From the NCBI RefSeq assembly GCF_037076555.1, contig NZ_AP029023.1, forward strand, positions 1,302,001-1,366,000: a stretch of DNA of 64,000 nt. The letters run 5' to 3'. Shown piece by piece: positions 1-16,131 of the stretch. Every line of letters begins with the position of its first letter. The first letter of the stretch is position 1. The notes under the pieces were generated by a model. That model saw nothing but the letters and a program-made list of their open reading frames with translations. It was not told the DNA's origin and did not search any database. The position numbers and the translations under genes were made by a program. Source of the DNA: Methylophilus sp. DW102. Lineage in GTDB: Bacteria; Pseudomonadota; Gammaproteobacteria; Burkholderiales; Methylophilaceae.

Positions 1-1084
1 TCAGGCATTGATGATTGAGTACACTTCCCGTTGTAATTTGCGCTGCAAGTATTGCTCCAAGAGTAATCCCGGTGACGACCAAATTCCTGGGCGTAATATG
101 GATATGACAACCACAACCGTGGATGCGGTCATTCATTTAATCGAGCAATCTTCTTATAGCGAGTTGTTGCTGGCAGGAACCGGCGAGTCTACTTTTCATC
201 CGCATTGGCGTGAAGATTTTCCACGCATGATACACGCTGGCAAGTCTCGTAATCCGTCATGTTATATCCATGTCAACAGCAACTTTGCGGCCAAATATGA
301 AGATGAGGATTGGGCGGTCTTTGCCCAGCTAGACGGGATCGTGATCTCAATTGACACCGCTGATCGGCAATTGACACGTGAGGTGCGCGCAAAGTCCGAC
401 CTCGGTTTGATTATTTACAACATTACCCGTTTGCAGACTTATTGCCAGTTTCACGGCCTCAAGTTACCCAAACTGACGGTGAACGTCACTTTATATCATG
501 AAGCCGCTGCTGGCCTGCCTGAATTGATGGCGATGCTTTCTAATTTGCCGATCACGTCGGTGACGATTTCAGATTTGTTTGAGCGTGAAGCCACTGACAA
601 ACATGCGATTCGTCCTTTGCATAACGATGATCCAGTGTCATTCAAGCAAGCTGTTGAGCATTTAAAACATGCCATGGAAATTGCAGATAAGCAGCAGGGC
701 TTTCGCGTCACCATACAGCCACATTTGATGGAGAGAATCGAAGCGATGGCGAGAAGTATCAATGCTGCTGCCACTGATACAGGCACTGTGCAGGCCGATC
801 CGCAACTTTCCACCAAACTTTGTTTGCAGCCTTGGACACGCTTTACACTGGCGGCCGATGCTGCGATCTTCCCTTGCTGTATGACTGAAATGGATCCAGT
901 GGGCAATCTCGATAGTGGCAAAGAAGAGGAGGGGTTGAACGGTGAAGGGATTCGTGCTTTCCGTCATGCCTTGCTGCGTGGTGATATGCCAACCTCCTGC
1001 AAGCATTGCACGAATGCACCAGATGTCAGCCCGCAAACCCTGCAGGCAGCAATCCATGAACTTTCAAGAAAGGCCAATGCATGA
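1..1084 (+). CDS. Radical SAM/SPASM domain protein (5' end outside window)
   Basis: The reading frame is open to the left edge, so the gene is partial. The first start-like codon, TTG at 8, lies only eight residues before the CxxxCxxC cluster motif (CNLRCKYC), and the real start is probably upstream. This motif binds the 4Fe-4S cluster that cleaves S-adenosylmethionine. A C-terminal SPASM-like cysteine set follows (CLQPW, then FPCCM, then CKHC), which normally holds auxiliary Fe-S clusters. The stop overlaps the next start (ATGA at 1081), so the gene is translationally coupled to the TPR/glycosyltransferase-like gene. Family members modify peptides or oxidise sugars and alcohols. The substrate here is unknown; context suggests glycan or flagellin tailoring. 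Confidence 0.85.
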   Translation, partial: QALMIEYTSRCNLRCKYCSKSNPGDDQIPGRNMDMTTTTVDAVIHLIEQSSYSELLLAGTGESTFHPHWREDFPRMIHAGKSRNPSCYIHVNSNFAAKYEDEDWAVFAQLDGIVISIDTADRQLTREVRAKSDLGLIIYNITRLQTYCQFHGLKLPKLTVNVTLYHEAAAGLPELMAMLSNLPITSVTISDLFEREATDKHAIRPLHNDDPVSFKQAVEHLKHAMEIADKQQGFRVTIQPHLMERIEAMARSINAAATDTGTVQADPQLSTKLCLQPWTRFTLAADAAIFPCCMTEMDPVGNLDSGKEEEGLNGEGIRAFRHALLRGDMPTSCKHCTNAPDVSPQTLQAAIHELSRKANA

Positions 1085-4000
1085 GCCAAGACACGATCAA
1101 CCAGATGGATGCTACGCCGGAGCAACTGATGGCCGAAGCTAATGCGCTGTTAGATCAACCGGAGCAAGTGTTAAAACACTATCAGGCTATTTTGCAGCAA
1201 TATCCTCGCTATGCACCTGCTTATCATCAACTTGGATTGGTTTTACGCTCACAAGGCGATACCGGTGCAATTGGCAAACTTGAACAGGCTATTCAGCTGG
1301 ATGCCGGGAATGAGCAATATTGGGGCAGCTATATTGAGGCGTTGATGTCCTTCGCGCAATTGCAAAAAGCTGCGGCGGCGATTCAGTTGGGGCTGCAATA
1401 TGGTTTAGGCGTGTCAAAAGCACACCTCCTGGCCCAGACATGTGTAGACCTAATGCAAGCGGCCGCGCCTTCAGACATGCGCAGTGCGAGTGAGGTGTCT
1501 ACTGCATTTGTCAACCCAGGCAACAAAGCGAAGGTTAAGATTTACCAAGCCTATTATTCAGAACAAAGTCGCCTCGAGTTGGATCAAGGATTTATTCCGT
1601 TTGATAACCTGGCCAACCCTAGACCAGACTGGCGCGAGTATTGGTTTATGCGGCAATATTTTTTGAATGAGCAGCTGGATGAAAATACGTTTTACGGATT
1701 TTTATCACCCAAATTTCACGAGAAAACCGGACTTTCTTCACAGCAAGTCTATTCTTTTATTGATGCTAATGCCGATCAGGCAGACATCATTTTATTTTCG
1801 CCCTTTTTTGACCAGACGGTGATGTATCTGAATCAGTTTCAGCAGGGAGTCCTCGCACATAAAGGGATCGAGCAATGTTTTAAAATGGTCATTAACAAAA
1901 TTGCACCTGGTACAGATATGAATGATCTCATCATGCACAGTGGCAATTCTGTTTACTCAAATTATTTTGTGGCGAAGCCAGTGTTCTGGCAAAAGTGGTT
2001 GTCCATTTGCGAAGAGTTGTTTCAGGAGGCGGAGGTTGGTAAAACGCTGCTTGCTCAACATCTTAATGCAGACACTACACACGAAAATAAACTCTTGCCA
2101 TGCAAGTCATTTGTGTTTGAACGTATTGTTTCACTGATGCTCTCAACGCAATCTGGCTGGCGTGTAAAAGCTTATGACTCTAGTTCTATGCCCTTGGTGC
2201 ATGCCAATTTGGCGCAATTTATCTCTGTGGAGGATTTAAAACAACTGGATGGCTTGAAAAGGAAAGCGTGCGAAGAAAATTGTAGTCTCAGAGATTTGGG
2301 TTACTTTGCTACGATGGATTCAGTCTGGGCGAAGATAGAGAAAATCAGACACGATAAGCTCATGCAATTGAACGCGGCGATTCAAGAAGTCTTTTTAGAA
2401 GCGGAACAGTTGCATGCGGCTGGGAGTATTGAGCAGGCATTGCATTTGTATCAGAGTATTCTTGCATCGCAACCTGAACATCCTGGTGCGAATCACAATA
2501 TTGCCTTAATTGAGACCCATACTTTGGGCGTTGAGGTGGCATTGCCTAAATTTGAAATGGCGGCACTCTCAAGACCCGATGTTGAGCAATATTGGGTCAG
2601 TCTGATTGATGCCTATATTTTAAGCAAAGATTTTCCGGCCGCTTATGAAGCTATCAGGCGTGGTCAGGCCAATGCATTGAGTACACAAATGGCAGAGGTC
2701 TTAAGCAAAGAGTGCTTAGAGGCGACGGATGCTGCGTGGAATGCTCAAAAACAAATCGGTATCACTTCTTCTGTGCCTTCTAGTGTCATCACGCAAGCGG
2801 CTGTGGATGCGTTGCTTGGACAATCACAAGTGTTATTATCAGAGGGTCAATATGAGGCGGCCAAAACCAATCTGCAACAAGTCTTAAAGTCGGATCCAAA
2901 CCATGCGCGGGCAAATCACGACTATGGTCGCTTGATCGCTGAAACCGAGGCATTAGATGCGGCAATGCCGTATCTTGAGGCTGCTATTGCCAATGCGCCC
3001 GAAGTAGAACAATACTGGGTAACGATTATTGATGCCTATACCCAATTGCATGCTTTTAAAACAGTATTTATGGCGATTAGTGAGGGCCGTAAGCATGGAT
3101 TGTCTGACGCGATGCAGCAGACTTTGTTTGAAGAAGTGGTTAATTACGCGATTAACTTGATCGGTGATCCACAAGTACAGCAAAGCATGGTCATGGAAGC
3201 ATTGATTGAGGATAGCGGTTTACATAAGCAGATTGTGGCAACGAATGTTGCACAAATCGAACACTGTCAGGCAGCTGGCTTAGTCATTTCCGGCAATATG
3301 GATTTAACTGCCTGCGAAGGCTTTCTGCAGCGTTTTCCGGCTTTGCTGGAGACCGATAAATTAATGACATTTATCCGCGCTACCGTGTTGAAACTGATGT
3401 GGTTGCCTGAATTCACCGGCCATAAAATATTCGCCCCTTATTTTGATCAGTTACTTGCCAACATAGACCTAGGCATTCCAGCTGTTCTCCCACGCAATGC
3501 AAAACTGGCGAATATGGTCGTTGCTAGCGAGGTATATGACTTTGGCGGGCATACCAGAGATATTATTTCCATCCTGAATAATGTTGAAAATCCCATGCTG
3601 GTGATTACGGATGTCTATTCCAGATTTGCGACACAAACCTTTTATAACAACATACAAAGTGCGCTGCCACTTTGTCCGGTCTTGGTATTGCCAAACGAGA
3701 GTTTGCTAGCAAAAAGCCAACGCTTAGGCAGTTTAATCAATACCTATGCACGCAATGTATTCTTATTGACACACCAAGACGATGTTGTTGCAGCAGTGGC
3801 TTGTCAGCCAAACTTCAACACAGACTATTATTTTATTCACCATGCCGACCATAATCTTTCTGTTGGCAGTGGTATTCCACATTTGCAACATGTGGATTTA
3901 TATGGGCAGCGTGCCATTAACTGCCATGAAGATTTGCAACGCGAAACCATGCACTTACCCACGACTGCGGTAGACAGAGGATGTAAACAGTTTAACTATG

Positions 4001-4542
4001 ATGCCGGCAAGCTAAGCACCGTCACTGCCGGGACTTATGCCAAGTTTAAAACTGAAGGCTCGCTTGCTCTCGCTGAATTAGTGGCTCAGGCTTTATTGGT
4101 GGGCGAGGGATACCACTATCATTTCGGCGAAATCAAACCCCATGATCTTCAGCAGTTGCAAAATGCGATTGCTGAAAAAGGCATCGATGTTCAGCGTTTT
4201 GTTTACATGGGCAATGTGCCATCATTGTGGCAGGCATTATTGGAGATTGATGCTCATGTGTTTATCGGATCTGCGCCGATTATGGGGGCAAAGTCTGATA
4301 TTGAGGCGCAGGGAGCTGGCTATCCTTTATTGGCCTTTAAGGCGCTTGATTGTGCCCGTCACATGAATGTGGGTAGTCATGCCCCTGACACCATTTACTG
4401 GCATGACATGGAAGCTTTTGTGGCAGGTTTAAAAGTCCTAAAAGCCGATCATGTTAAATATGCACAGTCAGCGCGTACTTATTATGAGCAAGCCTGCTCC
4501 ATGAATGCTTATCGGGATATATTAGGGAAAATGAGTCACTAG
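1081..4542 (+). CDS. Large TPR protein with glycosyltransferase-like C-terminus
   Basis: This is a 1153-residue protein. Three TPR-like blocks (about residues 15-115, 430-560 and 570-690) each contain a related signature: EQYWGSYIEAL, EQYWVSLIDAY and EQYWVTIIDAY. Between the first two lies a domain of about 260 residues (about 150-415, beginning KVKIYQAYY) that I do not recognise. The C-terminal third (about 800-1150) looks like a GT-B-type glycosyltransferase, with FGGHTRDI, a YFIHHADHNLS segment and an SAPIMGAKSDIEAQGAG segment in the position where GT-B enzymes bind nucleotide sugar. TPR-glycosyltransferase fusions are known as protein O-glycosyltransferases of the SPINDLY/OGT type. Its position in a tailoring operon upstream of flagellins makes flagellin or surface protein a candidate acceptor. 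No transmembrane segment was seen. Confidence 0.7.
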   Translation: MSQDTINQMDATPEQLMAEANALLDQPEQVLKHYQAILQQYPRYAPAYHQLGLVLRSQGDTGAIGKLEQAIQLDAGNEQYWGSYIEALMSFAQLQKAAAAIQLGLQYGLGVSKAHLLAQTCVDLMQAAAPSDMRSASEVSTAFVNPGNKAKVKIYQAYYSEQSRLELDQGFIPFDNLANPRPDWREYWFMRQYFLNEQLDENTFYGFLSPKFHEKTGLSSQQVYSFIDANADQADIILFSPFFDQTVMYLNQFQQGVLAHKGIEQCFKMVINKIAPGTDMNDLIMHSGNSVYSNYFVAKPVFWQKWLSICEELFQEAEVGKTLLAQHLNADTTHENKLLPCKSFVFERIVSLMLSTQSGWRVKAYDSSSMPLVHANLAQFISVEDLKQLDGLKRKACEENCSLRDLGYFATMDSVWAKIEKIRHDKLMQLNAAIQEVFLEAEQLHAAGSIEQALHLYQSILASQPEHPGANHNIALIETHTLGVEVALPKFEMAALSRPDVEQYWVSLIDAYILSKDFPAAYEAIRRGQANALSTQMAEVLSKECLEATDAAWNAQKQIGITSSVPSSVITQAAVDALLGQSQVLLSEGQYEAAKTNLQQVLKSDPNHARANHDYGRLIAETEALDAAMPYLEAAIANAPEVEQYWVTIIDAYTQLHAFKTVFMAISEGRKHGLSDAMQQTLFEEVVNYAINLIGDPQVQQSMVMEALIEDSGLHKQIVATNVAQIEHCQAAGLVISGNMDLTACEGFLQRFPALLETDKLMTFIRATVLKLMWLPEFTGHKIFAPYFDQLLANIDLGIPAVLPRNAKLANMVVASEVYDFGGHTRDIISILNNVENPMLVITDVYSRFATQTFYNNIQSALPLCPVLVLPNESLLAKSQRLGSLINTYARNVFLLTHQDDVVAAVACQPNFNTDYYFIHHADHNLSVGSGIPHLQHVDLYGQRAINCHEDLQRETMHLPTTAVDRGCKQFNYDAGKLSTVTAGTYAKFKTEGSLALAELVAQALLVGEGYHYHFGEIKPHDLQQLQNAIAEKGIDVQRFVYMGNVPSLWQALLEIDAHVFIGSAPIMGAKSDIEAQGAGYPLLAFKALDCARHMNVGSHAPDTIYWHDMEAFVAGLKVLKADHVKYAQSARTYYEQACSMNAYRDILGKMSH

Positions 4543-4543
4543 T

Positions 4544-5473
4544 ATGGAAATTCGGGCTTATCAGCAGCAGCCTCAAGCGTGGGATCAGTTTTTGGCGCAG
4601 AGCCGGAATGGAGCCTTCTTTTTCAAAAGAGGCTATATGGATTATCACGCCGATCGTTTTCAGGATGCTTCTTTGTGGGTGGAAAAAGAGGGCGAAATCA
4701 TTGCTATGCTGCCCGCTAGCCGTGATGGCGATACCATTGTCAGCCATGGCGGTTTGAGTTTTGGCGGTTTGGTCATGAGCCCACGTTTAGGCGCCGCAGA
4801 TGTTAAAACGTTGTTCGAGCAACTGCGGGATTACTGGGCAGGCATCGGCATCAAAAAACTTATTTATAAACCTGTCCCTCATATCTACCACACGATCCCA
4901 AGCGAAGAAGATTTGTACGCTTTATACCGGCTGGGTGCCAGGACTATGCGTGTCGATGTATCGACAACCATCATGCAAGCGTCACGGTTGCGCCTATCAA
5001 AAGGGCGTAAACATGCATTGTCCAAAGCGAGCAAAGCCGGGGTCACGATAAAAAAAACCAATGATTACGCCAGTTGTTGGCAAATGCTAACCGATAACTT
5101 GCAAGAACGACATGGCACAAAACCCACGCACAGCCTGGAAGAGATTTCCCTTCTGGCCAGCCGTTGTCCAGAGATCAGCTTATATATGGCCTATCTGCAA
5201 GAACAACCGATTGCCGGGGTGGTCATGTTTGATTTCGGCCGTGTCGCTCATACGCAATATATTGCGCCTAGTCCTGTAGCAAGAGAGGTAGGGGCTGTGG
5301 ATTTGTTGCTGGAAACGCTCATCAGTGAAATTTACGCGGACAAACCCTATTTCAATTTTGGCATTTCAACCTGTCACAATGGCTTAAGTTTTAATGAGGG
5401 CTTGTGTGCGCAAAAAGAAATGTTTGGTGGCCGCACGACGACCTTGCAATGGTTGGAAATGGATTGTGTATGA
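4544..5473 (+). CDS. GNAT/FemAB-like acyltransferase
   Basis: A 309-residue protein with the layout of FemAB/GNAT-fold acyltransferases: two halves, the second carrying a basic KGRKHALSKASKAG segment, then MAYLQEQPIAGVVMFDFG and a conserved tail with HTQYIAPSP and FNFGIS. Relatives transfer acyl or aminoacyl groups to amino sugars or peptides. The gene starts one base after the preceding stop and its own stop overlaps the methyltransferase start, so it is in the same operon. If the pathway makes a 3-amino-3,6-dideoxy sugar (FdtA and FdtB homologs lie downstream), this could be the N-acylating enzyme. That role is inference. Confidence 0.65.
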   Translation: MEIRAYQQQPQAWDQFLAQSRNGAFFFKRGYMDYHADRFQDASLWVEKEGEIIAMLPASRDGDTIVSHGGLSFGGLVMSPRLGAADVKTLFEQLRDYWAGIGIKKLIYKPVPHIYHTIPSEEDLYALYRLGARTMRVDVSTTIMQASRLRLSKGRKHALSKASKAGVTIKKTNDYASCWQMLTDNLQERHGTKPTHSLEEISLLASRCPEISLYMAYLQEQPIAGVVMFDFGRVAHTQYIAPSPVAREVGAVDLLLETLISEIYADKPYFNFGISTCHNGLSFNEGLCAQKEMFGGRTTTLQWLEMDCV

Positions 5474-6228
5474 CGCATGTGGATCTGCGTAAACAGGCTA
5501 TTGCTGCCTATGAGCAGGCGTATAGTGCTAGCGATTTTGAGGTGATTCAGGCACGCTACCGTAAAAAACTGTTACTTGAGTTGCTTGAAAAACACCAGCC
5601 TAAACATGTGCTTGAGGTTGGTTGCGGCTGGGACTCAATCGCCAATCACTGGCAAGGATTTGAACGCCTGGTCATTGTTGAGCCTGGTCCGCAGTTTGCG
5701 GAAAAAGCGCGAAAAGACACTGCGCATTTGTCAGGTGTACAAGTTATCGAAGAGTTTCTTGAAAATGTCGGTCCGGAGCGCTCAACGACTTCCTATGATT
5801 TGATCTTGCTAAGCAGTCTCATGCACGAGGTTCCAGATCCAGAAGCCTTGCTGGTCAGTGCCAAGGCGTTGGCAGATAAACAGACGGTGATTCATATCAA
5901 CGTACCAAATGCTTTATCCATGCACCGTCTGCTAGCGGTGGAGATGGGGTTGATGGATAGCGTCTATGCCCAGTCAGCATTGCAAAAATCGTTTAATCAA
6001 CCACGTATTTTTGATTTAAAGCAATTAAAAGCCCTGGCAAACGAACTAGGATTACAAGTAATGGATTCAGGCTCTTTTCTGATGAAACCGTTTACGCATG
6101 GGCAAATGATGACACTCATGCAACAAGGCCTACTGACACAGGAAATGCTAGATGGGCTATGGCATTTAGCCAGACATTTTCCGGAAAACGGCTCTGAAAT
6201 TTATGTCAATCTCAAACTTGAGGACTGA
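5470..6228 (+). CDS. Class I SAM-dependent methyltransferase
   Basis: The start was chosen at ATG 5470, which overlaps the previous stop (ATGA), rather than at the longer in-frame opening at 5404 inside the upstream gene. The 252-residue product has the class I methyltransferase motif I (HVLEVGCGWDSIA), an acidic residue after the second strand (LVIVEPG) and motif IV-like LILLSSLMHEVPDPEAL. The last of these resembles small-molecule and sugar methyltransferases. The target is unknown; a sugar O- or N-methylation step in the same tailoring pathway is the simplest reading. The next gene starts two bases after the stop. Confidence 0.8.
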   Translation: MTHVDLRKQAIAAYEQAYSASDFEVIQARYRKKLLLELLEKHQPKHVLEVGCGWDSIANHWQGFERLVIVEPGPQFAEKARKDTAHLSGVQVIEEFLENVGPERSTTSYDLILLSSLMHEVPDPEALLVSAKALADKQTVIHINVPNALSMHRLLAVEMGLMDSVYAQSALQKSFNQPRIFDLKQLKALANELGLQVMDSGSFLMKPFTHGQMMTLMQQGLLTQEMLDGLWHLARHFPENGSEIYVNLKLED

Positions 6229-6230
6229 AA

Positions 6231-7706
6231 ATGGATACTAAAACAACTGTGATTGTTGGTAACGCTTTGGCTGGAATGGTTGCTGCTTTGGAGCTGGCGC
6301 GACAAGGCAAAACAGTATCCCTGGTAAATCCTGGCGGTCCGTGGGGCGGATACTTTGCCGGGCTAGAAATTGATGGCGTCATGTTTGACGCTGGTTTGGT
6401 TAAGTTTGAGCTTGACGGATACCTGGGGCAGGCTGGTGTTTCGCAATTGAGCAGCTATGACCCTGAGCGTCGCAATGATGTGGGGCGATTTTTGAATATT
6501 GTGCATGATTGGGTGTTGCAATATACCCCGCTACATCAATTTGACATGCCCAAAATGTGGCTGGGAAATAAAGCTTACGATGATGTGGTACTTGCAAACA
6601 GTTACCACACATTTAGCCAATTACCGTTTGCTCAGGCAAGTATTGCCGAATTGCAGGCTCAGACACCTTCCGATGCAGTGCATGCTCGCGAGAAAGCTCA
6701 GGGCGACAGTTATCACCGCCTGGATTACCTGAAGGCCTCACTGGCCAACCATGGCAAAACCATGCACGAGCAGATTATTGCGCCTTATTTGTTAAAAGCG
6801 CAGGGGGTGACGGCAGACAAAATGCTGGCTCGCTATCACCGCGTAGCCTGGTTGCCTTTATATTACCCGGAAACGTTGTTAGCGAGCTTTCAAGGCAAAG
6901 CAGTGCCCTTGAATCCAACCGTGTTCCACTATCCTAAGCATGGCGCCATTGGCGATATCCTGAAGCAGGTTAGGCAACAGCTCATTGCACACCCAAATAT
7001 CACGCTGATACAGCAACCTGTCACACGCGTGACTAAGCAGGCTAACTGCTGGCAAGTGCAACTCGCGGACAATACCACACTGGATGGTGCAAACCTCGTA
7101 TGGACCGGCGCGCCTGCAGCATTGCTTAAAGCCCTTGGTCAGTCGGCTACGCCAGTGCAAGAAATAAAATCACCGATCGCCGTGCTTTTTTTGCGCATTA
7201 AGCGTCAGGATATCAAAGATATTTATACCTTGATGCATGTGCTGGATTTGGACAAGTGTGCCTATCGGATAACCAACCAAACGGTGTGTGCTGACAATAT
7301 GACGGATGACATGAATATCGTGGTTGAATTCAATCAGGATTACTTCAAGCGATTGTATGGGGAGCAGGATCTGTCAGATGTATATATCATTGAAAAATTG
7401 CTGGCCGAGTTGGCGAGCATGAATATGATAGCGGCAGAGACTAAGCCTTTAATTGCATGCATTAAACGTATTCCGGGCGGTTTTTTGGTTCCAGACGAAG
7501 CGGCACGGGATGCCTGGGAGCAAGACAAGGCCAATGTTGTAAATAAACATCCTGAAATAGCCTTGCTGGCGATGTCTAGCGGATTTTTTGCAACTTCACT
7601 AAACGATCAGGTGGTACAAGGCTTGTACTATGCGCAAAGCCAAAATAACACCGCAGTAAAATCAGTACTGCAGCAACAGCCAACGGCCACGGCATTACTA
7701 AGTTAA
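6231..7706 (+). CDS. FAD-dependent oxidoreductase, amine oxidase/protoporphyrinogen oxidase-like
   Basis: A 491-residue protein with an N-terminal Rossmann dinucleotide-binding segment, VIVGNALAGMVAALELARQG, a variant of GxGxxG followed by further glycines (GGPWGGY). The length and the NLVWTGAPAALLKAL segment resemble flavin monoamine oxidases, protoporphyrinogen oxidases and UDP-galactopyranose mutases. It begins two bases after the methyltransferase. The GNALAG loop departs from canonical GAGxxG, so the cofactor assignment is from overall pattern only. In this operon it may oxidise or rearrange a nucleotide sugar, but the substrate cannot be read from sequence. Confidence 0.65.
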   Translation: MDTKTTVIVGNALAGMVAALELARQGKTVSLVNPGGPWGGYFAGLEIDGVMFDAGLVKFELDGYLGQAGVSQLSSYDPERRNDVGRFLNIVHDWVLQYTPLHQFDMPKMWLGNKAYDDVVLANSYHTFSQLPFAQASIAELQAQTPSDAVHAREKAQGDSYHRLDYLKASLANHGKTMHEQIIAPYLLKAQGVTADKMLARYHRVAWLPLYYPETLLASFQGKAVPLNPTVFHYPKHGAIGDILKQVRQQLIAHPNITLIQQPVTRVTKQANCWQVQLADNTTLDGANLVWTGAPAALLKALGQSATPVQEIKSPIAVLFLRIKRQDIKDIYTLMHVLDLDKCAYRITNQTVCADNMTDDMNIVVEFNQDYFKRLYGEQDLSDVYIIEKLLAELASMNMIAAETKPLIACIKRIPGGFLVPDEAARDAWEQDKANVVNKHPEIALLAMSSGFFATSLNDQVVQGLYYAQSQNNTAVKSVLQQQPTATALLS

Positions 7707-7729
7707 GTGGGTATTGATCTTATTCGTTC

Positions 7730-8635
7730 ATGAAAATATTGGTATTGGGTAGCTGGCAGAACTTGCATACAAGCGCAGACCAGTCAGCATTGGCATCTGT
7801 TTGGGCGAAAGCCATTGATCAGGGTATCCGGCACTTTGATACTGCTGATAGCTATGAAGATGGTATCGCTGAGATCTTGCTGGCTGATCTATTGCAGGGT
7901 CTACCCAGAACAAGCTACCAGTTATCCAGTAAATGTTTTTTTGCGACAAGCGCAGCGCCGTTGGGTGGATTATCCGTGGCACATGTAAAGCCTGCCTTGG
8001 AGGGTACGCTAAAGCGCCTGCAGACTGATTATCTGGATGTTTATTTTGCTCATCGCGATGATCAAAGTCTCTCGGTTGAGCAGATCGCTGAGACTTTTAA
8101 CGAATGCATTACGGAAGGCAGTATTCGTCATTGGGGGATTTGCCGGTGGGCACCTGAACGTGTTGCAGCGTTGATGGATTTTTGCCAGCAAACAGGGCTG
8201 CAACCGCCAGTCGCTCAGCAGTTTCATTACCATTTGTTTAACCGGGACGCAGAACAGGAATCTTTTCCGCTCTACAGCCGTTTTGGATTGCCAACTTGGG
8301 TGTATTCACCATTGGCGCAAGGGGTACTGACTGGTAAATATCATGATGGTATTCCGCACCTAGCACGTGCAGGTATGGAACATGCCAAAGCCAGTATGTG
8401 GGAGTTTCATCCGGAAAAAATTGCGCGTGTGAGGGCATGGGCTGAATGGTTACAGCATAGGGGATTGACTCCGGTACAGGCCGCGATGGCTTTTTGTTTA
8501 AGCCGGCCAGAAGTGAGTCATGTGCTGATCGGCGCGACACAGGTGCAACAACTGGAAGAAATTTTGTCAGCGGCCAACATAGATTGGCAACAGGAAATCG
8601 TAGAGGTGTTTGATGCAATGTCAACTTACCATTGA
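7730..8635 (+). CDS. Aldo/keto reductase
   Basis: A 301-residue TIM-barrel oxidoreductase of the aldo/keto reductase superfamily. The catalytic tetrad is recognisable: Asp37 and Tyr42 in FDTADSY, Lys68 in LSSKCF and His108 in YFAHRDD. The NADPH-binding C-terminus is visible as VLIGATQVQQLEEIL. The N-terminus is shorter than usual, with no extended beta hairpin before the first strand, and no good ribosome binding site precedes ATG 7730. It follows the FAD oxidoreductase by 23 bases and overlaps the next gene. It probably reduces a keto-sugar or aldehyde intermediate made by neighbours (inference). Confidence 0.85.
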   Translation: MKILVLGSWQNLHTSADQSALASVWAKAIDQGIRHFDTADSYEDGIAEILLADLLQGLPRTSYQLSSKCFFATSAAPLGGLSVAHVKPALEGTLKRLQTDYLDVYFAHRDDQSLSVEQIAETFNECITEGSIRHWGICRWAPERVAALMDFCQQTGLQPPVAQQFHYHLFNRDAEQESFPLYSRFGLPTWVYSPLAQGVLTGKYHDGIPHLARAGMEHAKASMWEFHPEKIARVRAWAEWLQHRGLTPVQAAMAFCLSRPEVSHVLIGATQVQQLEEILSAANIDWQQEIVEVFDAMSTYH

Positions 8636-9434
8636 TGGTCAGTCCCATCAATATCAAATTGAAGGCGATTTTTTCTGGGGTGAAGATCAGGTTTTATTTG
8701 AAAAAGACGCTGATACACTTGCTCTAGTGGATTGGCGTGAGCAAGGGTATACCGTCCAACCATTGTTTGGTGCGGAGGCTTTTAGCACAATCCGAGAAAG
8801 TCTGACGCAACGTCTCAAAACTATATTACAGGCCGAAGTCCCAACGTTAGATTTAGCTCATTTTCAGCTTGAAAACTATCATCATTACGTACAGGATGAG
8901 GTGCACCAGCGCGTCATTTCGCAGACCCGTTTTCTTGACTTCTCTTCATTTGAGATTGATACACAGCAACTGTGTGAAAATGTCTCTGCAATTTTAGGTC
9001 GAACGGTGGGGTGCCATAACCAATTGTTAGAACGTGATGTGGTGATTTTGCGCATTAGCCGTCCGAATAGCCTGGATATTAATCCACCGCATCGCGATGG
9101 TTATCTTGAGATTTGGCAACGCACAATCAATCTTTGGATTCCTATTGCCGGCTGCTCAGACCAGTCATCGCTACCAGTCATTGCGGGGAGTCACTTCTGG
9201 AATGAAAACACGATTTACAGAACGGCTGCAAAAGGTGCAAAAATTCAAGGTAATAACTATCACGTGCCTGCGATATTGCAGACAAAGCAAGGGCCGCTGT
9301 CATTAGCACGACAAAACCCGCAACCTGGCGAAGCGCTTATTTTTACGCCTTATTTAGTGCATGGCTCTGCCATCAACCAGCAAGCCGACACGACTAGAAT
9401 GTCGCTTGAAATTCGACTTCCTTTTCAAAGTTGA
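8613..9434 (+). CDS. Phytanoyl-CoA dioxygenase (PhyH)-family Fe(II)/2OG oxygenase
   Basis: ATG 8613 was preferred to the TTG one codon earlier because a GAGGT ribosome binding site lies at 8603-8607. The gene overlaps the end of the aldo/keto reductase by 23 bases. The 273-residue product has an HxD iron-binding pair (His160 and Asp162 in NPPHRDGY) and a distal histidine (His250 in YLVHGSA), followed by an arginine-containing TTRMSLEIRL that would hold 2-oxoglutarate. PhyH enzymes hydroxylate lipids, amino acids and sugars. It is the last gene of the overlapping run; a 123-base gap follows. It is one of two unrelated-looking 2OG oxygenases near the flagellins. Confidence 0.8.
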   Translation: MQCQLTIDGQSHQYQIEGDFFWGEDQVLFEKDADTLALVDWREQGYTVQPLFGAEAFSTIRESLTQRLKTILQAEVPTLDLAHFQLENYHHYVQDEVHQRVISQTRFLDFSSFEIDTQQLCENVSAILGRTVGCHNQLLERDVVILRISRPNSLDINPPHRDGYLEIWQRTINLWIPIAGCSDQSSLPVIAGSHFWNENTIYRTAAKGAKIQGNNYHVPAILQTKQGPLSLARQNPQPGEALIFTPYLVHGSAINQQADTTRMSLEIRLPFQS

Positions 9435-9557
9435 AATCCTGAACTGACTAGCAGGTGGTTGTTTTGTATTTTTTTCTAGCAATTGAAACAGCCACGCTAG
9501 TTTTAAGCTGATGGTGCTTGATTCAGTAACACCTAGAATATATGAAGGAATCTCGGT

Positions 9558-9968
9558 ATGCCATTGGAAGATTGCAGAATTATTGAACTGCCGAAAATAA
9601 ACAGCCCGGATGGCAATTTGACATTTGTCGAGAGCGACAATCAGATTCCATTTGCCATTAAGCGTGTCTACCATGTCTATGATGTTCCAGGTGGTGCACA
9701 GCGTGGAGGTCATGCGCACAAAAATCTTCACCAATTTATTGTGGCGATGTCAGGAAGCTTTGACATTACGCTCGATGATGGCAAGGATAAGCGAAAATTC
9801 CATTTAGCCCGCTCTTATTACGGATTGTATGTGTGTCCAATGATCTGGCGCGAAATCGATAACTTCTCCTCCGGCTCGGTCTTGATGTGTATTGCTTCCG
9901 AAAAGTATGACGAGTCTGATTATTATCGGCAGTATGATGAATTTATGCGAGCACGTTGGGCTGCTTGA
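9558..9968 (+). CDS. FdtA/QdtA-type dTDP-4-keto-6-deoxyhexose 3,4-ketoisomerase (WxcM-like cupin)
   Basis: A 136-residue single cupin matching the FdtA/QdtA family in length and motif order: IKRVYHVYDVPGGAQRGGHAH, with His52 and His54 in the position of the catalytic histidines of FdtA, then GSFDITLDDG and a C-terminal YDESDYYRQYDEF. These enzymes convert dTDP-4-keto-6-deoxyglucose to the 3-keto isomer, the step before PLP-dependent amination. An AAGGA ribosome binding site precedes the start. A matching FdtB-like aminotransferase is at 12364, separated by an oxygenase and a flagellin. Whether the product is the gluco or galacto epimer cannot be told from sequence. Confidence 0.82.
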   Translation: MPLEDCRIIELPKINSPDGNLTFVESDNQIPFAIKRVYHVYDVPGGAQRGGHAHKNLHQFIVAMSGSFDITLDDGKDKRKFHLARSYYGLYVCPMIWREIDNFSSGSVLMCIASEKYDESDYYRQYDEFMRARWAA

Positions 9969-10013
9969 GTTGCCACGTTCTGCCAATATCTGAATTCAAA
10001 ATATTTAACCATT

Positions 10014-10048
10014 AAAAAAGGCGCATCATTGATTTGATGCGCCTTTGT
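10014..10048. terminator. Bidirectional rho-independent terminator
   Basis: A perfect 9-bp stem (GGCGCATCA at 10020-10028 and TGATGCGCC at 10035-10043) with a 6-base loop is flanked by an A-run on the left and TTTGTTTTT on the right. It sits between the convergent FdtA-like and 2OG-oxygenase genes and can serve both strands. Confidence 0.85.
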
Positions 10049-10070
10049 TTTTATTACGTGGAAAATGTAT

Positions 10071-10916
10071 TTATGAGTGGCTGACGGTGCCAGCGACTGG
10101 TAAAGGCTCGGTCGGTTGTTTAGCAGGTTTTTTGTTTTTGCGGTAAACCTCGCTTGAGGTGGTTACATTGGCGCGCATACGGATCAGGTCAGCAATTTCT
10201 GCACTGTCTTTTTGATGCTCGCGCGGTGCAAACAAGGCTCTGCCACGCGGATCTGCGTCCACCGGTGGCTCGCATAAATAATAGACGGCCAGACTCTTGC
10301 GATACACACCATAAGGCTGGGTCAATGGACGGCTCATGCCGTGCCAGGAGTTCTGAGTCGTATCAAAAATCACTGCACGGTTAAATTTGGGGCAGACTTC
10401 TTTTAGCAGTTCGCCAGGCTGATTTTGCTCTGCATCGTGGCTCCACAAACCCAAATGTCCGCCATGATATGGCTTGAGTTGCTCCGACACATAAATAATG
10501 ATGTTGATTTTGCGCTGCAAACCTAATTTGGGATGAATGGAGTAATCCAGGTGCGGATTCAAATTGCCGCCAGTGCCGTGAATATGCCAGCCGCCGCCGT
10601 GCAAGCCATTGTCAGCATATAACTGGGTGCCGACGATTTCAGATAGTTTGTCTATGACCGGGGCCGAGTTCAGTGTCTGGAACAGCGCATAGGTCAGCGC
10701 AGGGAAAGCATTCCAGTCATTCAATGCTTTTTTGTCTTCGATCTCATTTTGGTAGTGAAACCAGCGCGAAGAGTCATACTCTGGAAATTCGCGTGCAATC
10801 TTTTTCACCAATTCAGGATTCAAGAAATTATCGATGACGGCATGGCGGAAAGGTTTTGCATCTTGAAAGTGATGCATTCCTTTAGTCAGATGATTCAAAT
10901 CCAGAAACGATTGCAT
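10071..10916 (-). CDS. 2OG-Fe(II) oxygenase, prolyl 4-hydroxylase-like
   Basis: A 281-residue protein. The start at 10916 was chosen because AAGGGGGA lies about five bases upstream of that ATG; a longer form to 10934 would place the start inside this site. The double-stranded beta-helix motifs are present: HLD in NLNPHLDYS (HxD iron ligands), the distal histidine in NSWHGMSRPL and an arginine in YRKSLAVYYL. This resembles prolyl-4-hydroxylase-like 2OG oxygenases common in surface-glycan clusters. It is transcribed towards the FdtA gene and away from flagellin 1. Its substrate could be a sugar, a lipid or a protein such as flagellin; nothing in the sequence decides this. Confidence 0.8.
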   Translation of the reverse strand: MQSFLDLNHLTKGMHHFQDAKPFRHAVIDNFLNPELVKKIAREFPEYDSSRWFHYQNEIEDKKALNDWNAFPALTYALFQTLNSAPVIDKLSEIVGTQLYADNGLHGGGWHIHGTGGNLNPHLDYSIHPKLGLQRKINIIIYVSEQLKPYHGGHLGLWSHDAEQNQPGELLKEVCPKFNRAVIFDTTQNSWHGMSRPLTQPYGVYRKSLAVYYLCEPPVDADPRGRALFAPREHQKDSAEIADLIRMRANVTTSSEVYRKNKKPAKQPTEPLPVAGTVSHS

Positions 10917-11329
10917 GAAAATCCCCCTTCGCATTCATTGAGCGTGTTATGTATTTATATCGGACACGCAAGCAATTTATTAAGGCGAATACGCATGTAT
11001 TTATGCGCTAATTTTTGTAGATGCTGTACCGACCTTGGGTGGTGGCGCAGTGTGACAAGCTCCAAGCGTTTTAGCGCATGAATCAGCGCGCAGGGATATC
11101 TCTAGAAATGGTGGCAAAACCACGTTCTATTCAATGAAATCAAATATGCGGGGCTGCGATAAAGTGATTCTTAACTTGACGCAACGTTCTTACTATAACG
11201 GTCAGCATTTGCTTAACTTGAGTAATAACGTGCGAAATCAGATTAATTTAAAACAGATTTGAAGAGCTTGAGTGTGGCATGAATACTTAACATGAAGCTC
11301 GATATTTTTGTACATTAAGGAGGCTTAAC
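10917..11329. promoter_or_regulatory. 413-bp divergent region upstream of flagellin 1
   Basis: Non-coding, between the minus-strand oxygenase and flagellin 1. It contains a strong ribosome binding site for flagellin 1 (TAAGGAGG at 11316-11323). I found no sigma-28 match here, unlike flagellins 2 and 3. A weak sigma-70-like pair, TTAACT (11171-11176), 17 bases, TATAAC (11194-11199), is the best promoter candidate. No small gene was recognised. Confidence 0.35.
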
Positions 11330-12130
11330 ATGGCTGCAGTCATTAATACCAATATTTCATCATTAAATGCCCAGCGCAATTTAAATGCATCTCAAGCTGG
11401 TTTGAATCAATCCATACAGCGTTTGTCTTCAGGGCTGCGCGTTAACAGTGCCAAAGATGATGCGGCAGGGTTGGCGATTGCAACACGCATGGACTCTCAA
11501 GTTCGTGGCAATGATGTGGCAATTCGCAACTCCAATGATGCTATTTCATATCTGCAAGTGACCGAAGGTGGTTTGTCGAAAGCGACTGATGTGCTCCAAC
11601 GTATGCGTGAGTTGGCGGTGCAGGCTGCCAACGGCAGCTATGGTTCTGGTGACCGTGCCAATCTGGATACAGAGTTTACGCAGTTGACTGAAGAGTTAAC
11701 CCGCTTGAGCACCTCTACCCAGTTTAACGGTTTGAACGTATTTGGCGGTCCCGGCTATACCTTCCAGATTGGTTCTGGCTCTGCGGATACTTTGCAAGTC
11801 AGTTCCGTGACCGCAGCTTCCATCTCTGGTAATGTGCAAACCGCCTCAGCAGCAACGGCTGCGATTACAGCCATTGATGCGCAACTGGATTCAGTGAATA
11901 CGTCACGTGCGAGTCTGGGTGCGTACCAGAACCGCTTTGAAGCGGTAATCAGCAGCTTGCAAGTGAATATCGAAAATGTGTCCGCGGCGAAATCCCGGAT
12001 TATGGATGCAGACTTTGCGTCAGAAACTGCGAAGATGACCCGTAACCAGATTCTGCAACAAGCAGGCACGGCGATGCTGGCCCAGGCCAACCAGTTGCCT
12101 AATAGCGTCATGTCGCTGATTCAACGTTAA
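11330..12130 (+). CDS. fliC: Flagellin 1
   Basis: A 266-residue flagellin consisting almost only of the conserved D0/D1 ends: N-terminal INTNISSLNAQRNL and SSGLRVNSAKDDAAGLAIA, and C-terminal QILQQAGTAMLAQANQLPNSVMSLI. The central segment (about residues 150-185) is short, so the surface D2/D3 domains are essentially absent. It has no cysteine. Compared with the two later copies it differs at scattered positions and ends SLIQR instead of SLLRG. It has its own, different upstream region and is followed by a long hairpin, suggesting a separate transcript. The subunit polymerises into the filament after export by the flagellar type III system. Confidence 0.96.
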   Translation: MAAVINTNISSLNAQRNLNASQAGLNQSIQRLSSGLRVNSAKDDAAGLAIATRMDSQVRGNDVAIRNSNDAISYLQVTEGGLSKATDVLQRMRELAVQAANGSYGSGDRANLDTEFTQLTEELTRLSTSTQFNGLNVFGGPGYTFQIGSGSADTLQVSSVTAASISGNVQTASAATAAITAIDAQLDSVNTSRASLGAYQNRFEAVISSLQVNIENVSAAKSRIMDADFASETAKMTRNQILQQAGTAMLAQANQLPNSVMSLIQR

Positions 12131-12160
12131 TCCTTAGGCTGTTTTATAGTGACATTTCAC

Positions 12161-12205
12161 AGGTCGTGGGCTTTTGTCTAGGCAAAAGCCCACGACCTCT
12201 TCATT
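12161..12205 (+). terminator. Long hairpin after flagellin 1
   Basis: A perfect 16-bp inverted repeat (12161-12176 with 12183-12198, loop of 6) starts 31 bases after the flagellin 1 stop. The tail is CTTCATTTCT rather than a clean T-run. It probably ends or stabilises the flagellin mRNA. Confidence 0.65.
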
Positions 12206-12252
12206 TCTGGATCATCTCATCAACACACCAGTTCTCTATCGTTCAGGATAGG

Positions 12253-12277
12253 CCGGTAAAACCGGTTTTGTTTTTTT
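12253..12277 (+). terminator. Short GC stem with long T-tract
   Basis: A 5-bp stem (CCGGT/ACCGG, 12253-12265) with a 3-base loop is followed by TTTTGTTTTTTT. It is a second candidate terminator about 60 bases after the long flagellin 1 hairpin and before the aminotransferase gene. Confidence 0.45.
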
Positions 12278-12363
12278 CAATTTAAAGTTTCCAGATGCGA
12301 TATAGTTAACGCAATCTTTGCGGTAACACGCGCGATCCCTGTTGCTGGGATGTTGATAATTGG

Positions 12364-13476
12364 ATGCCAAACATGATTCCTTTCCTTGATCTCAAAGCCG
12401 CTTATGACGAATTGTCGCCTGACCTTGAGACTGCCCTGTTAAGGGCTACCCGTTCTGGCTGGTATATCGGTGGCGAAGAAGTGGAGGCCTTTGAAGCCCA
12501 GTTTGCCGCATATACTGGCGCCCCGTATTGTGTCGGCGTGGGCAATGGCCTCGATGCACTGACCTTGGCCTTGCGCGCCATGGATGTGGGGGTGGGGGAT
12601 GAGGTGATTGTCCCCTCCCATACTTATATTGCGACCTGGTTGGCGGTGAGTGCGGTCGGCGCGACTGTGGTCCCTGTCGAGCCTACTGAGGGGCAGTTCA
12701 ATATTGATGTTGCCGCCATTCAGGCAAAAATCACAGCTAAAACCAAAGTCATTTTGCCGGTGCATTTATATGGTATCCCGGCAGACATGGATGCCATTTG
12801 TGCATTAGCCAAACAGCATGGCTTGCTGGTGTTGGAGGATGCTGCGCAAGCGCATGGCGCTGCCGTCAGGGGTAAATGGGTAGGTACGCATGGGGATGCG
12901 GTCGCATGGAGCTTTTACCCGGGCAAGAATTTGGGGGCTTTGGGCGATGGTGGGGCCGTCACCACAAGGCATGAGCATCTCGCCCAACGTATACGCGCGC
13001 TTGGCAATTATGGCTCAGCCGTCAAATATTACAATCTGGAGCCTGGCGTGAATAGTCGCCTGGATCCCTTGCAAGCCGCCGTGCTGTCAGTCAAGCTGGC
13101 TGCGCTGGATGAGTGGAATACACGCAGGCAGGCATTGGCGCAGCGCTATCTTGAGGGTTTGCAAGGCCTGCCTTTGCAATTGCCTGTTTCTCCAGCCTGG
13201 GCCAATACTATCTGGCATTTGTTTGTGATCGCAACGCCACAACGCGATGCCTTGCAAACCTGGTTGCAGGCGCATGGGGTGCAAACCCTGATTCATTATC
13301 CCGTCCCGCCACATTTGCAACAGGCTTATCAGTCGCTCGGTTGGCAAGCAGGCCATTTTCCGTGTGCCGAGCGTTATGCCAATCAAGTACTGAGTTTGCC
13401 CATGGGCCCGCAACTCTCAGTCACGGCTGTCGACCAGGTGATTGAGCTGGTACAGCAGTTTTTCAGAGCGCAGTGA
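12364..13476 (+). CDS. DegT/DnrJ/EryC1 sugar aminotransferase, FdtB-like
   Basis: A 370-residue PLP-dependent aminotransferase with the family's hallmark N-terminus ([13 protein letters not shown]), the [15 protein letters not shown] cofactor loop, [11 protein letters not shown] and the PLP lysine Lys188 in [15 protein letters not shown]. The C-terminus has [11 protein letters not shown]. Family and motif order fit enzymes that aminate dTDP-3-keto-6-deoxyhexoses (FdtB, QdtB), which is the next step after the FdtA-like ketoisomerase at 9558. The start may be ATG 12364 or ATG 12373; the ribosome binding site is poor. It lies between flagellins 1 and 2, with terminator-like hairpins upstream, so it may have its own promoter. 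Confidence 0.85.
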
Positions 13477-13500
13477 GACTGTCTCACGCATCGCCTCGTT

Positions 13501-13527
13501 TAAAGTTTTTCCGAGTAGGGTCGTAAA
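13501..13527 (+). promoter_or_regulatory. Upstream sigma-28-like element of flagellin 2
   Basis: TAAAGTTT (13501-13508, a perfect sigma-28 -35), 11 bases, then GTCGTAAA (13520-13527), a degraded -10. The same element with the same spacing recurs upstream of flagellin 3. It may be a weak second promoter or a relic of promoter duplication. Confidence 0.45.
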
Positions 13528-13574
13528 GAGTGTCAAGTGCATGATCTTCCCAACAGAAATTTAAAGTGCATGAT

Positions 13575-13601
13575 TAAAGAAATTTCTGGCGAAGTCGATA
13601 A
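13575..13601 (+). promoter_or_regulatory. Sigma-28 (FliA) promoter of flagellin 2
   Basis: TAAAGAAA (13575-13582), 11-base spacer, GTCGATAA (13594-13601), which is 7 of 8 with the GCCGATAA consensus. It lies about 110 bases before the flagellin 2 start. The same arrangement is conserved upstream of flagellin 3. Confidence 0.8.
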
Positions 13602-13645
13602 AAGTAATAACAACGCTGAATAGCAAACACGAAGTCAAAAAGTGG

Positions 13646-13657
13646 ATCAACGTTGAT
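13646..13657. promoter_or_regulatory. 12-bp palindrome in flagellin 2 leader
   Basis: A perfect palindrome, ATCAACGTTGAT, about 45 bases downstream of the sigma-28 -10. It is conserved exactly at the equivalent place upstream of flagellin 3 although flanking bases differ. It is a candidate operator; a binding protein is not known. Confidence 0.4.
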
Positions 13658-13711
13658 ATGACATGCCGATTTGACACTAACTACACATAGGACTCTGAAG
13701 GAGACTAAAAC

Positions 13712-14512
13712 ATGGCTTCTGTAATTAATACCAACATTGCATCCCTGAATGCACAGCGTAACCTGAATGCTTCACAAACAGGCTTGAATCAATCGATTCA
13801 GCGTTTATCTTCTGGCTTGCGTATCAATAGCGCCAAAGACGATGCAGCGGGGATGGCAATTGCCACTCGCATGGACTCCCAAATTCGTGGCAATGAAGTT
13901 GCGATTCGTAACTCAAACGACGCGATTTCTTACCTGCAAGTGACAGAAGGTGGTTTGTCCAAAGCGACAGACGCCCTGCAACGTATGCGTGAACTGGCCG
14001 TACAGGCAGCCAACGGCAGCTATGGTTCTGGTGACCGTACTAACCTGAACACAGAGTTTACACAACTGACTTCAGAATTAACCCGCTTGAGTACTTCTAC
14101 CCAGTTTAACGGTTTGAATGTATTTGGTGGTTCAGGTTACACCTTCCAGATTGGTTCTGGTTCTGCAGATACCTTGCAGGTGAGTGCAGTGACTGCGGCT
14201 TCTGTGACTGGCAGTGTTGCCACCGTTTCAGATGCGACTGCAGCGATTACCGCGATTGATGCGCAACTGGATGCGGTGAACACTTCACGTGCCAGCCTGG
14301 GTGCCTACCAAAACCGTTTTGATGCCGTTGTGAGCAGCCTGCAAGTGAACGTGGAAAACATTTCTGCAGCGAAATCCCGGATTACGGATGCAGACTTCGC
14401 GTCAGAAACTGCGAAGATGACCCGTAACCAGATTCTGCAACAGGCAGGCACAGCAATGCTGGCCCAAGCCAACCAGTTGCCTAACAGTGTCATGAGCTTG
14501 CTCAGAGGCTAA
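13712..14512 (+). CDS. fliC: Flagellin 2
   Basis: A 266-residue short flagellin, nearly identical to flagellin 3 and close to flagellin 1. It has the same D0/D1-only architecture and ends MSLLRG. The start is preceded by GAAGGAGA. The leader and promoter are duplicated with flagellin 3 (13501-13711 against 15122-15330), so the gene and its promoter appear to have been copied as one unit of about 1010 bases. The variable stretch is around residues 158-172 (SVTGSVATVSDAT). A strong terminator follows, so it is probably monocistronic. Confidence 0.96.
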   Translation: MASVINTNIASLNAQRNLNASQTGLNQSIQRLSSGLRINSAKDDAAGMAIATRMDSQIRGNEVAIRNSNDAISYLQVTEGGLSKATDALQRMRELAVQAANGSYGSGDRTNLNTEFTQLTSELTRLSTSTQFNGLNVFGGSGYTFQIGSGSADTLQVSAVTAASVTGSVATVSDATAAITAIDAQLDAVNTSRASLGAYQNRFDAVVSSLQVNVENISAAKSRITDADFASETAKMTRNQILQQAGTAMLAQANQLPNSVMSLLRG

Positions 14513-14537
14513 GTTTTCTCGAGGCTTTCAAATTATG

Positions 14538-14577
14538 GCGAGCATTTGTTTAGACAAGTGCTCGCTTTTCTTTTTTT
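14538..14577 (+). terminator. Terminator of flagellin 2
   Basis: A 12-bp stem with one G-U pair (14538-14549 with 14554-14565) and a 4-base loop, followed by TTTTCTTTTTTT. This is a textbook intrinsic terminator 25 bases after the flagellin 2 stop. Confidence 0.9.
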
Positions 14578-15330: not shown

Positions 15331-16131
15331 ATGGCTTCTGTAATTAATACCAATATTGCATCTCTGAATGCACAGCGTAACCTGAATGCTTCACAAACAG
15401 GCTTGAATCAATCGATTCAGCGTTTGTCTTCCGGCTTGCGTATCAATAGCGCCAAAGATGATGCAGCGGGCATGGCAATTGCCACCCGTATGGACTCCCA
15501 AATTCGTGGTAGTGATGTTGCGATTCGTAACTCAAACGACGCGATTTCTTACCTGCAAGTGACAGAAGGTGGTTTGTCCAAAGCGACAGACGCCCTGCAA
15601 CGTATGCGTGAACTGGCCGTGCAGGCAGCCAACGGCAGCTATGGTTCTGGTGACCGTGCCAACCTGAACACAGAGTTTACACAGCTGACTTCAGAATTAT
15701 CCCGCTTGAGTACATCTACCCAGTTTAACGGTTTGAATGTATTTGGCGGTTCAGGCTACACCTTCCAGATTGGTTCTGGTTCTGCAGATACCTTGCAGGT
15801 GAGCGCAGTGACTGCGGCATCTATTAGCGGCAACGTGTCCACTGTTTCAGATGCGACGGCAGCGATTACCGCGATTGATGCGCAACTGGATGCGGTGAAC
15901 ACTTCACGTGCCAGCCTGGGTGCCTACCAAAACCGTTTTGAAGCCGTTGTGAGCAGCCTGCAAGTGAACGTGGAAAACATTTCTGCAGCGAAATCCCGGA
16001 TTACGGATGCAGACTTCGCGTCAGAAACTGCGAAGATGACCCGTAACCAGATTCTGCAACAGGCAGGCACAGCAATGCTGGCCCAAGCCAATCAGTTGCC
16101 TAACAGTGTCATGAGCTTGCTGAGAGGTTAA
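15331..16131 (+). CDS. fliC: Flagellin 3
   Basis: A 266-residue short flagellin, differing from flagellin 2 at only a handful of positions (for example RGSDVAIRN for RGNEVAIRN, and SISGNVSTVSDAT in the variable stretch). It has the same D0/D1-only structure and ends MSLLRG. The last 150 or so bases are almost identical in the two genes, compatible with recent duplication or ongoing gene conversion. The ribosome binding site is AAAGGAGA. flaG follows after a small hairpin, so read-through into flaG-fliD-fliS is possible. Confidence 0.96.
   Translation: MASVINTNIASLNAQRNLNASQTGLNQSIQRLSSGLRINSAKDDAAGMAIATRMDSQIRGSDVAIRNSNDAISYLQVTEGGLSKATDALQRMRELAVQAANGSYGSGDRANLNTEFTQLTSELSRLSTSTQFNGLNVFGGSGYTFQIGSGSADTLQVSAVTAASISGNVSTVSDATAAITAIDAQLDAVNTSRASLGAYQNRFEAVVSSLQVNVENISAAKSRITDADFASETAKMTRNQILQQAGTAMLAQANQLPNSVMSLLRG

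Follow-up and report, generated by a model that had tools for sequence, protein, structure and literature searches.

In Enterobacteriaceae and Geobacillus, flagellin glycosylation islands are described as variable, with horizontally exchanged sugar genes; FdtA/FdtB can be found in one Geobacillus island and a UDP-galactopyranose mutase gene in other islands (PMC4875605, PMC5109656). FlmG of Caulobacter, a protein of 596 aa associated with pseudaminic acid, is described as combining a flagellin-binding N-terminal TPR region with one GT domain, of the GT-B type, and is reported to act on several flagellins in the cytoplasm (PMC7591256). In C. difficile, the type B flagellin glycan is reported to bear a terminal sulfonated peptidylamido sugar, and its modification locus to contain a FemAB-like gene (PMC5207246). 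The locus considered here lies at the start of the window, i.e., the whole stretch of 64,000 nucleotides analysed. It is best read as a flagellin glycosylation island whose decoration cassette can be exchanged (probability about 0.65), flagellin being the predicted acceptor and a modified amino sugar the predicted product. The gene block and a giant glycosyltransferase would probably build this unusual sugar and attach it to the flagellum. Its features are as follows.

1..9557 (upstream limit at -360), forward strand: segment exchanged between strains
1..1084, forward strand: radical SAM/SPASM module and stop codon, C-terminal end of a 2406-aa ORF
1081..4542, forward strand: 1153-aa TPR protein, predicted by model to end in a GT-B glycosyltransferase domain (aa ~741-1153)
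4544..5473, forward strand: FemAB/GNAT-type acyltransferase (Acetyltransf_6)
5470..6228, forward strand: SAM methyltransferase (Methyltransf_23)
6231..7706, forward strand: UGM-like FAD enzyme
7730..8635, forward strand: aldo/keto reductase, AKR (Aldo_ket_red, 182 bits)
8613..9434, forward strand: PhyH-type 2OG-Fe(II) oxygenase (Pfam PhyH)
9558..9968, forward strand: FdtA/QdtA-type dTDP-4-keto-6-deoxyhexose 3,4-ketoisomerase (PF05523, 189 bits)
10017..10046, forward strand: putative intrinsic terminator-like hairpin 3' of FdtA (12-pair stem, T-rich tail; consensus match)
11330..12130, forward strand: flagellin 1, candidate acceptor (Flagellin_N, Flagellin_C)
12364..13476, forward strand: DegT sugar aminotransferase, QdtB/FdtB-type, between flagellins 1 and 2 (376 bits)
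13712..14512, forward strand: flagellin 2 (Pfam)
15331..16131, forward strand: flagellin 3 (Pfam)
16205, 16583 and 18296: FlaG, FliD and FliS, 3' of flagellin 3 (Pfam)

The genes are tightly packed, and the coordinates and overlaps given by an earlier, sequence-only reading hold: ATGA overlaps are found at 1081 and 5470, one base (4543) separates the gene of the 1153-aa protein from the FemAB-like gene, two bases (6229-6230) precede the FAD gene, and the AKR and PhyH genes overlap by 23 bases (8613-8635). Its domain labels are supported by Pfam (radical SAM and SPASM, TPR, Acetyltransf_6, Methyltransf_23, Aldo_ket_red, PhyH, FdtA), the FAD protein being classified only weakly. The radical SAM domain is not encoded by a separate gene, as had been supposed, and forms instead the C-terminus of the 2406-aa ORF, which crosses the window edge. 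The cassette has a GC content of 46.8% versus 51.0 and 50.2% for its flanks. Flagellins 2 and 3 share 90 and 91% identity with flagellin 1. Genes for sugar synthesis and glycosyl transfer stand inside or beside this flagellin locus.

Synthesis of an amino-deoxy sugar beside the three flagellin genes, also proposed earlier, is supported by a PF05523 ketoisomerase together with a DegT aminotransferase, the pair typical of Fdt/Qdt pathways, and by RmlB elsewhere in the genome (TIGR01181, 499 bits, cut-off 365; G000:C1:1637412, G000 being the present genome). The ketoisomerase matches 5tpu with 124 bits, 2pa7 with 116 bits and QdtA 4o9e with 98 bits (galacto/FdtA versus gluco/QdtA), and the protein at 12364, previously named FdtB, is indeed a DegT sugar aminotransferase matching PDB entries 2oga and 3frk QdtB. 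RmlB and a presumed RmlA, also encoded elsewhere, would supply dTDP-4-keto-6-deoxyglucose. Judging from the enzyme families, FdtA would then shift the keto function to C3 for amination by DegT, giving dTDP-3-amino-3,6-dideoxyhexose, either Fuc3N or Qui3N. The 3-amino group is likely N-acylated by the FemAB-type enzyme, perhaps with an amino acid; NCBIfam places this assignment below cut-off, and the family profile matches an aminoacyl-tRNA-dependent peptide synthase (E 4.8e-6). The methyltransferase would add a methyl group.

What is done to this sugar appears to differ between strains. In another genome of the species, G539, the flanks match those of the present genome, while 4517 bases stand in place of -360 to 9557, and no blastn match at E 1e-3 can be found between the exchanged segment and its replacement. 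The latter encodes a different C-terminal end for the giant protein, along with a QdtF-like sugar N-formyltransferase (QdtF being the name of TDP-3-aminoquinovose N-formyltransferase), which matches TDP-3-aminoquinovose N-formyltransferase with its ankyrin part included (E 1.3e-89). DegT is 98% kept in G539 and stands between two flagellins in both strains. Given matching flanks around a swapped segment with a formyltransferase, the shared part probably makes dTDP-3-amino-3,6-dideoxyhexose and the strains probably swap its decoration. Strain variability between conserved flanks, as in an island, is seen here in one genome pair, G000 and G539. FdtA and DegT are common to the present locus and to Fdt/Qdt pathways with QdtF; in place of formylation, the present locus has FemAB, methyltransferase, UGM-like enzyme, AKR, PhyH and radical SAM.

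A scan of named genomes for relatives of the FAD enzyme yielded 37 loci from Pseudomonadota, Actinomycetota and Bacteroidota, many of them cut by contig ends. The methyltransferase can be found in 36 of the 37 and the FemAB-like gene in 35, counted with methyltransferase and FAD profiles built partly from members of these loci and with a FemAB profile that includes the divergent L036 member, so that the pseudomonad FemAB matches lean on L036. Single-sequence queries, used for the remaining genes, detected FdtA in 32/37 loci and the DegT transaminase in 33/37. The FemAB-like gene lies a short way ahead of the FAD gene in 33/37 loci and the methyltransferase immediately 5' of it in 33/37, an arrangement which is therefore not due to chance. 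From these counts, the conserved core is FemAB-MT-FAD-FdtA-DegT. The seven genes do not constitute one conserved pathway, as had been suggested, since no locus among the 37 gave a match to the radical SAM domain, AKR or PhyH; judging from this distribution, AKR and PhyH are accessory to the present lineage. Among 60 relatives, the FAD enzyme has five strong and three weak matches (three strong among 20 same-genus genomes), PhyH one weak match (E 6.8e-4) and the radical SAM domain a single weak one (E 4.6e-4). A plasmid search gave no match to the FAD enzyme, and the PhyH-type protein scores 35 bits against SpoChoClust_2, under the cut-off of 150.

The flavoenzyme is the single unassigned member of this core. 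By fold it is nearest to UDP-galactopyranose mutase (UGM), to which it can also be aligned in profile over its full length, and it resembles UGM at two Arg positions: R204 and R346 are kept in 113/113 sequences and align with R182/R333 of the UGM-like L129, although against a five-sequence UGM profile R346 is aligned and R204 falls in a gap. In UGM, this Arg pair lies in the active site and binds the substrate. Unlike UGM, the enzyme lacks the GLF domain PF03275 among its Pfam matches at E 0.01, it has V57 (Val in 95/113) where L129 has the conserved active-site His of UGM, and its substrate is likely a dTDP-sugar. In single-sequence runs, L129 was the best match (E 4.3e-12) and five bacterial UGMs were poor (7.7e-6 to 0.007). 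An hhalign match to bacterial UGM (E 7.8e-10) was not accepted as proving that the enzyme is a UGM, since a control profile of eight mixed amine-oxidase, PPO and desaturase sequences scored better; the family matches this control with E 3.3e-15 versus 1.2e-9 for the bacterial UGM profile. What remains in support of the UGM reading is the fold rank and the Arg pair. Within the same island, the FAD protein might instead be a true oxidase or dehydrogenase that, with no ring contraction, oxidises the N-aminoacyl group introduced by FemAB or the N-methyl group introduced by the methyltransferase. Membership of the amine-oxidase superfamily, the better score of the PPO/desaturase profile, a gene that adjoins those of the acyltransferase and methyltransferase in most loci, Val at the UGM His position and the loss of UGM Tyr positions (in an alignment judged by eye) all speak for an oxidase, which is a serious competitor at somewhat under even odds. 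If UGM-like, the flavoenzyme would turn the dTDP-sugar into its furanose form.

Regarding the acceptor, the check proposed earlier, whether the operon always neighbours flagellins, fails in part. A flagellin lies at less than ~10 kb in 13/37 loci and 14-19 kb away on the same contig in six more, i.e., within 20 kb in 19/37, including loci from Burkholderiales, pseudomonads and Actinomycetota. No flagellin is found within ~10 kb in L013-L017, the five nearest relatives of the cassette, whose genomes all have a flagellin. Flagellin genes are present in 32 of 36 searched genomes having the FAD gene and were not found in the other four, all Bacteroidota MAG records; therefore, other acceptors likely exist. 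L013-L017 and these four carriers also favour a product destined for LPS, capsule or another surface protein, with the flagellin locus as mere island housing, as does the fact that Fuc3N and Qui3N are common O-antigen sugars. This destination is nevertheless unlikely in view of the 19/37 loci with flagellin within 20 kb, of DegT flanked by flagellins in both strains and of the FlmG-like architecture of the TPR-GT protein.

Flagellin as acceptor is also consistent with the giant protein, since the 2406-aa ORF, like FlmG, has N-terminal TPRs and a GT-B/GT41-type catalytic domain. It starts 6137 bases upstream of the window (L002:7864, GTG; earliest in-frame ATG at aa 27) and has the order TPR-GT41-GT2-like-TPR-GT41-TPR-radical SAM/SPASM, i.e., two GT41 domains, one GT2-like domain and three TPR regions. 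The final ~380 aa form the radical SAM stretch, with a CX3CX2C motif at aa 2057 and PF04055 and PF13186 (radical SAM, SPASM) both over the Pfam cut-off. Of the 10 other genomes of the genus that were examined, 8 encode a TPR-GT41 giant in the ~20 kb preceding fliC, and the TPR-rSAM fusion recurs in P0121 (58% identity across 553 columns). The radical SAM domain has no match at E 1e-30 among 398 further genomes from the order, none in a PDB sequence search, and 58 relatives, most of them free-standing, in the protein database. In the 1153-aa protein, the stretch downstream of the TPRs, which lacks Pfam matches, models as a GT-B glycosyltransferase; a PDB sequence search with this family gave no match. 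The TPRs of the giant protein may dock flagellin in FlmG-like manner, its GT modules would build the glycan and the 1153-aa protein would add the modified sugar. In the present strain, further changes to the sugar could come from AKR, PhyH and the radical SAM module; the last, being fused to the transferase, may act on glycan already bound to flagellin. That these three act RiPP-style directly on flagellin side chains and not on the glycan is very doubtful: peptides are frequent substrates of SPASM radical SAM enzymes, the module is fused to a presumed flagellin-docking protein and it matches named NCBIfam maturases (none at cut-off among the best 25 of 30, the top at 81 bits versus 380), but all three share one exchanged block with sugar genes and the genome's only PqqD-type leader-binding match, at C1:1502546, is distant from the island.

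Under the favoured reading of a glycosylation island, everything from acylation onwards would be swapped when strains exchange the 3' part of the giant gene together with the genes that follow, the stretch in which the two genomes differ. A bolder version, which is tentative, holds that FemAB-MT-UGM-like-FdtA-DegT is a widespread, apparently undescribed flagellin-sugar pathway to an acylated, methylated 3-amino-3,6-dideoxyfuranose, and that the present lineage has a modular, assembly-line flagellin glycosyltransferase that swaps its last modules. It is just as speculative that the radical SAM module remodels the sugar on the protein, strains altering their flagellar surface by gene-end replacement. 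Flagellar glycans influence immune recognition, phage adsorption and motility and, to our knowledge, the chemistry of many flagellin glycosylation islands is not known. The within-species swap amounts to a natural experiment, with near-identical flagellin loci and a recognisable N-formyltransferase in one genome, and predicts that the same flagellin peptides would differ by a defined mass. The conserved core, with its single unassigned flavoenzyme and beside flagellin in two phyla, offers a tractable target.

In the open-licence literature, no description of the present gene set was found. With the islands of Enterobacteriaceae and Geobacillus it has in common that sugar genes are exchanged at the flagellin locus; FdtA/FdtB is shared with one Geobacillus island, and the UGM gene of others has a UGM-like counterpart here. 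Unlike in these, the present exchange breaks within a transferase gene. In the main texts on those islands, "radical SAM" and "oxidoreductase" are absent and FemAB does not occur together with flagellin glycosylation (PMC4875605, PMC5109656); "TPR" is absent from one (PMC5109656). FlmG, compared by description, shares the architecture of N-terminal TPR plus GT domain, whereas the present ORF runs to 2406 aa, carries GT41 twice along with a GT2-like domain, and terminates in radical SAM/SPASM. The C. difficile locus likewise has a FemAB-like gene at a flagellin modification locus but, unlike the present one, uses ATP-grasp and Pfam 00535 (GT2) enzymes, and its description names no UGM-like gene (PMC5207246). 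Among flagellin glycosylation islands, the present locus would represent a new variant.

The gene borders proposed in the sequence-only reading were correct when checked in the sequence, except that its radical SAM gene, the first 1084 bases of the window, is the tail of a much longer reading frame in the source genome (3.02 Mb; window at C1:1302001-1366000), located in the stretch extended 5' of the window (L002):

L002:7864-15084, 2406-aa ORF with, in order, TPRs, GT41, GT2-like domain, TPRs, second GT41, TPRs, radical SAM and SPASM

A TPR-radical SAM fusion is also found in P0121, a 534-aa database protein (58% over 553 columns). The C-terminal domain of the adjoining 1153-aa TPR protein has a predicted GT-B fold. 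Upstream of the island, at L002:503-4824, lies a row of glutamine-synthetase-like, GATase, GXGXG and glutamate-synthase-like genes, which we take to resemble the N-methylglutamate pathway for methylamine.

Comparison with the genome G539, which is listed under the same species, delimits a replaced block. The left flank (window -13999 to -360) matches in two pieces at 97.6 and 95.2%, and the right flank (10005 to 22000) at 96.3%, with identity dropping near the borders, to 88% in the final 1640 bases of the left flank and 85% in the initial 300 of the right flank. Between them, the 9917 bases from -360 to 9557 gave no blastn match at E 1e-3 to the 4517 bases found in G539; FdtA follows directly with a 76% match. 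The G+C of the block (46.8%) is below that of the flanks (51.0 and 50.2%). The two giants share 94% identity across aa 1-1964 and diverge beyond; the G539 giant (3017 aa) is extended by GT61 and GT2 modules, its tail shares only TPR similarity with the window proteins, and a comparable TPR-GT41-GT2-GT61-GT2 giant is found in L015, a close cassette relative. In G539 a single gene follows the giant; it codes for an ankyrin-repeat formyltransferase, matched best in the PDB by TDP-3-aminoquinovose N-formyltransferase (E 1.3e-89, residues 9-390). DegT is 98% kept in G539, and the flagellins 91-97% (all scored against flagellin 1). From this one genome pair, our reading is that a sugar-decoration block and the C-terminal modules of the transferase were probably exchanged jointly.

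The three flagellins are in tandem (window 11330-16131). Flagellins 2 and 3 share 90-91% identity with flagellin 1, and DegT lies between flagellins 1 and 2, an order identical in G539. A strong terminator-like hairpin (17 pairs, 12161-12198) follows flagellin 1, and a 2OG-Fe(II) oxygenase gene on the opposite strand (10071-10934, 93% kept in G539) separates the cassette from the flagellins.

Of 7998 candidates scored, 116 are related to the FAD protein at E <= 0.001. In 37 loci from a scan of named genomes, annotated by BLAST and by profiles or phmmer, a methyltransferase is found in 36 (directly 5' of the FAD gene in 33), a FemAB-like gene in 35 (a short distance 5' of the FAD gene in 33), DegT in 33 and FdtA in 32; the loci are not phylogenetically independent. 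Most core-gene absences concern contigs below 6.3 kb (L018, L027, L030, L048); on longer stretches, FdtA is missing from L042 and DegT from L038. Since the aldo/keto reductase, PhyH and the radical SAM domain were detected in 0/37 loci against 32-36/37 for the core, the seven genes, initially taken as one set, resolve into a conserved core and accessories that were seen here only in this lineage.

That the operon always neighbours flagellins, a check proposed in the sequence-only reading, holds only in part. A flagellin gene lies inside the examined stretch (at most +-10 kb) in 13/37 loci. Six further loci (L033, L037, L040, L044, L045, L049) have one on the same contig at 14-19 kb, as checked by matching contig stretches to loci; the L038 contig did not match. 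The remaining 18 comprise loci truncated by contig ends, the unsearched L035, loci unlinked to flagellin and loci lacking one. None of the closest relatives, L013-L017, has one within ~10 kb; in L013, L014, L015 and L017 (by position, genomes G016, G001, G012 and G027), the flagellin gene sits on a separate contig or roughly 1 Mb off. Flagellin is present in 32 of the 36 searched carrier genomes, the four in which it was not found (L027, L030, L031, L042) all being Bacteroidota MAGs by title.

The flagellin locus was examined in ten of 20 other same-genus genomes. Eight have a TPR-GT41 giant of ~2500 aa and, between it and fliC, six phosphonate-chemistry genes:

L115:10896-16945, (-) strand, phosphonate set, also in flagellin loci L114, L116-L120 and L123

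The set comprises a PEP mutase-cytidylyltransferase fusion, a phosphonopyruvate decarboxylase, a PhnW-like transaminase (below cut-off), a second cytidylyltransferase, a methyltransferase and a glycerophosphotransferase-like gene. Because of this position, aminoethylphosphonate may decorate flagellin or its glycan in those eight loci. The other two (G012 and G016) have neither giant nor phosphonate genes at the flagellin locus; both carry the FemAB-MT-FAD cassette elsewhere, with its own giant (L015 and L013, respectively).

With regard to known systems, the FemAB profile weakly hits an aminoacyl-tRNA-dependent peptide synthase; this hit and the type B locus of C. difficile (PMC5207246) make it our leading guess that the 3-amino nitrogen would bear an aminoacyl group added by FemAB. 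For flagellin docking, FlmG of Caulobacter (PMC7591256) serves as the working model.
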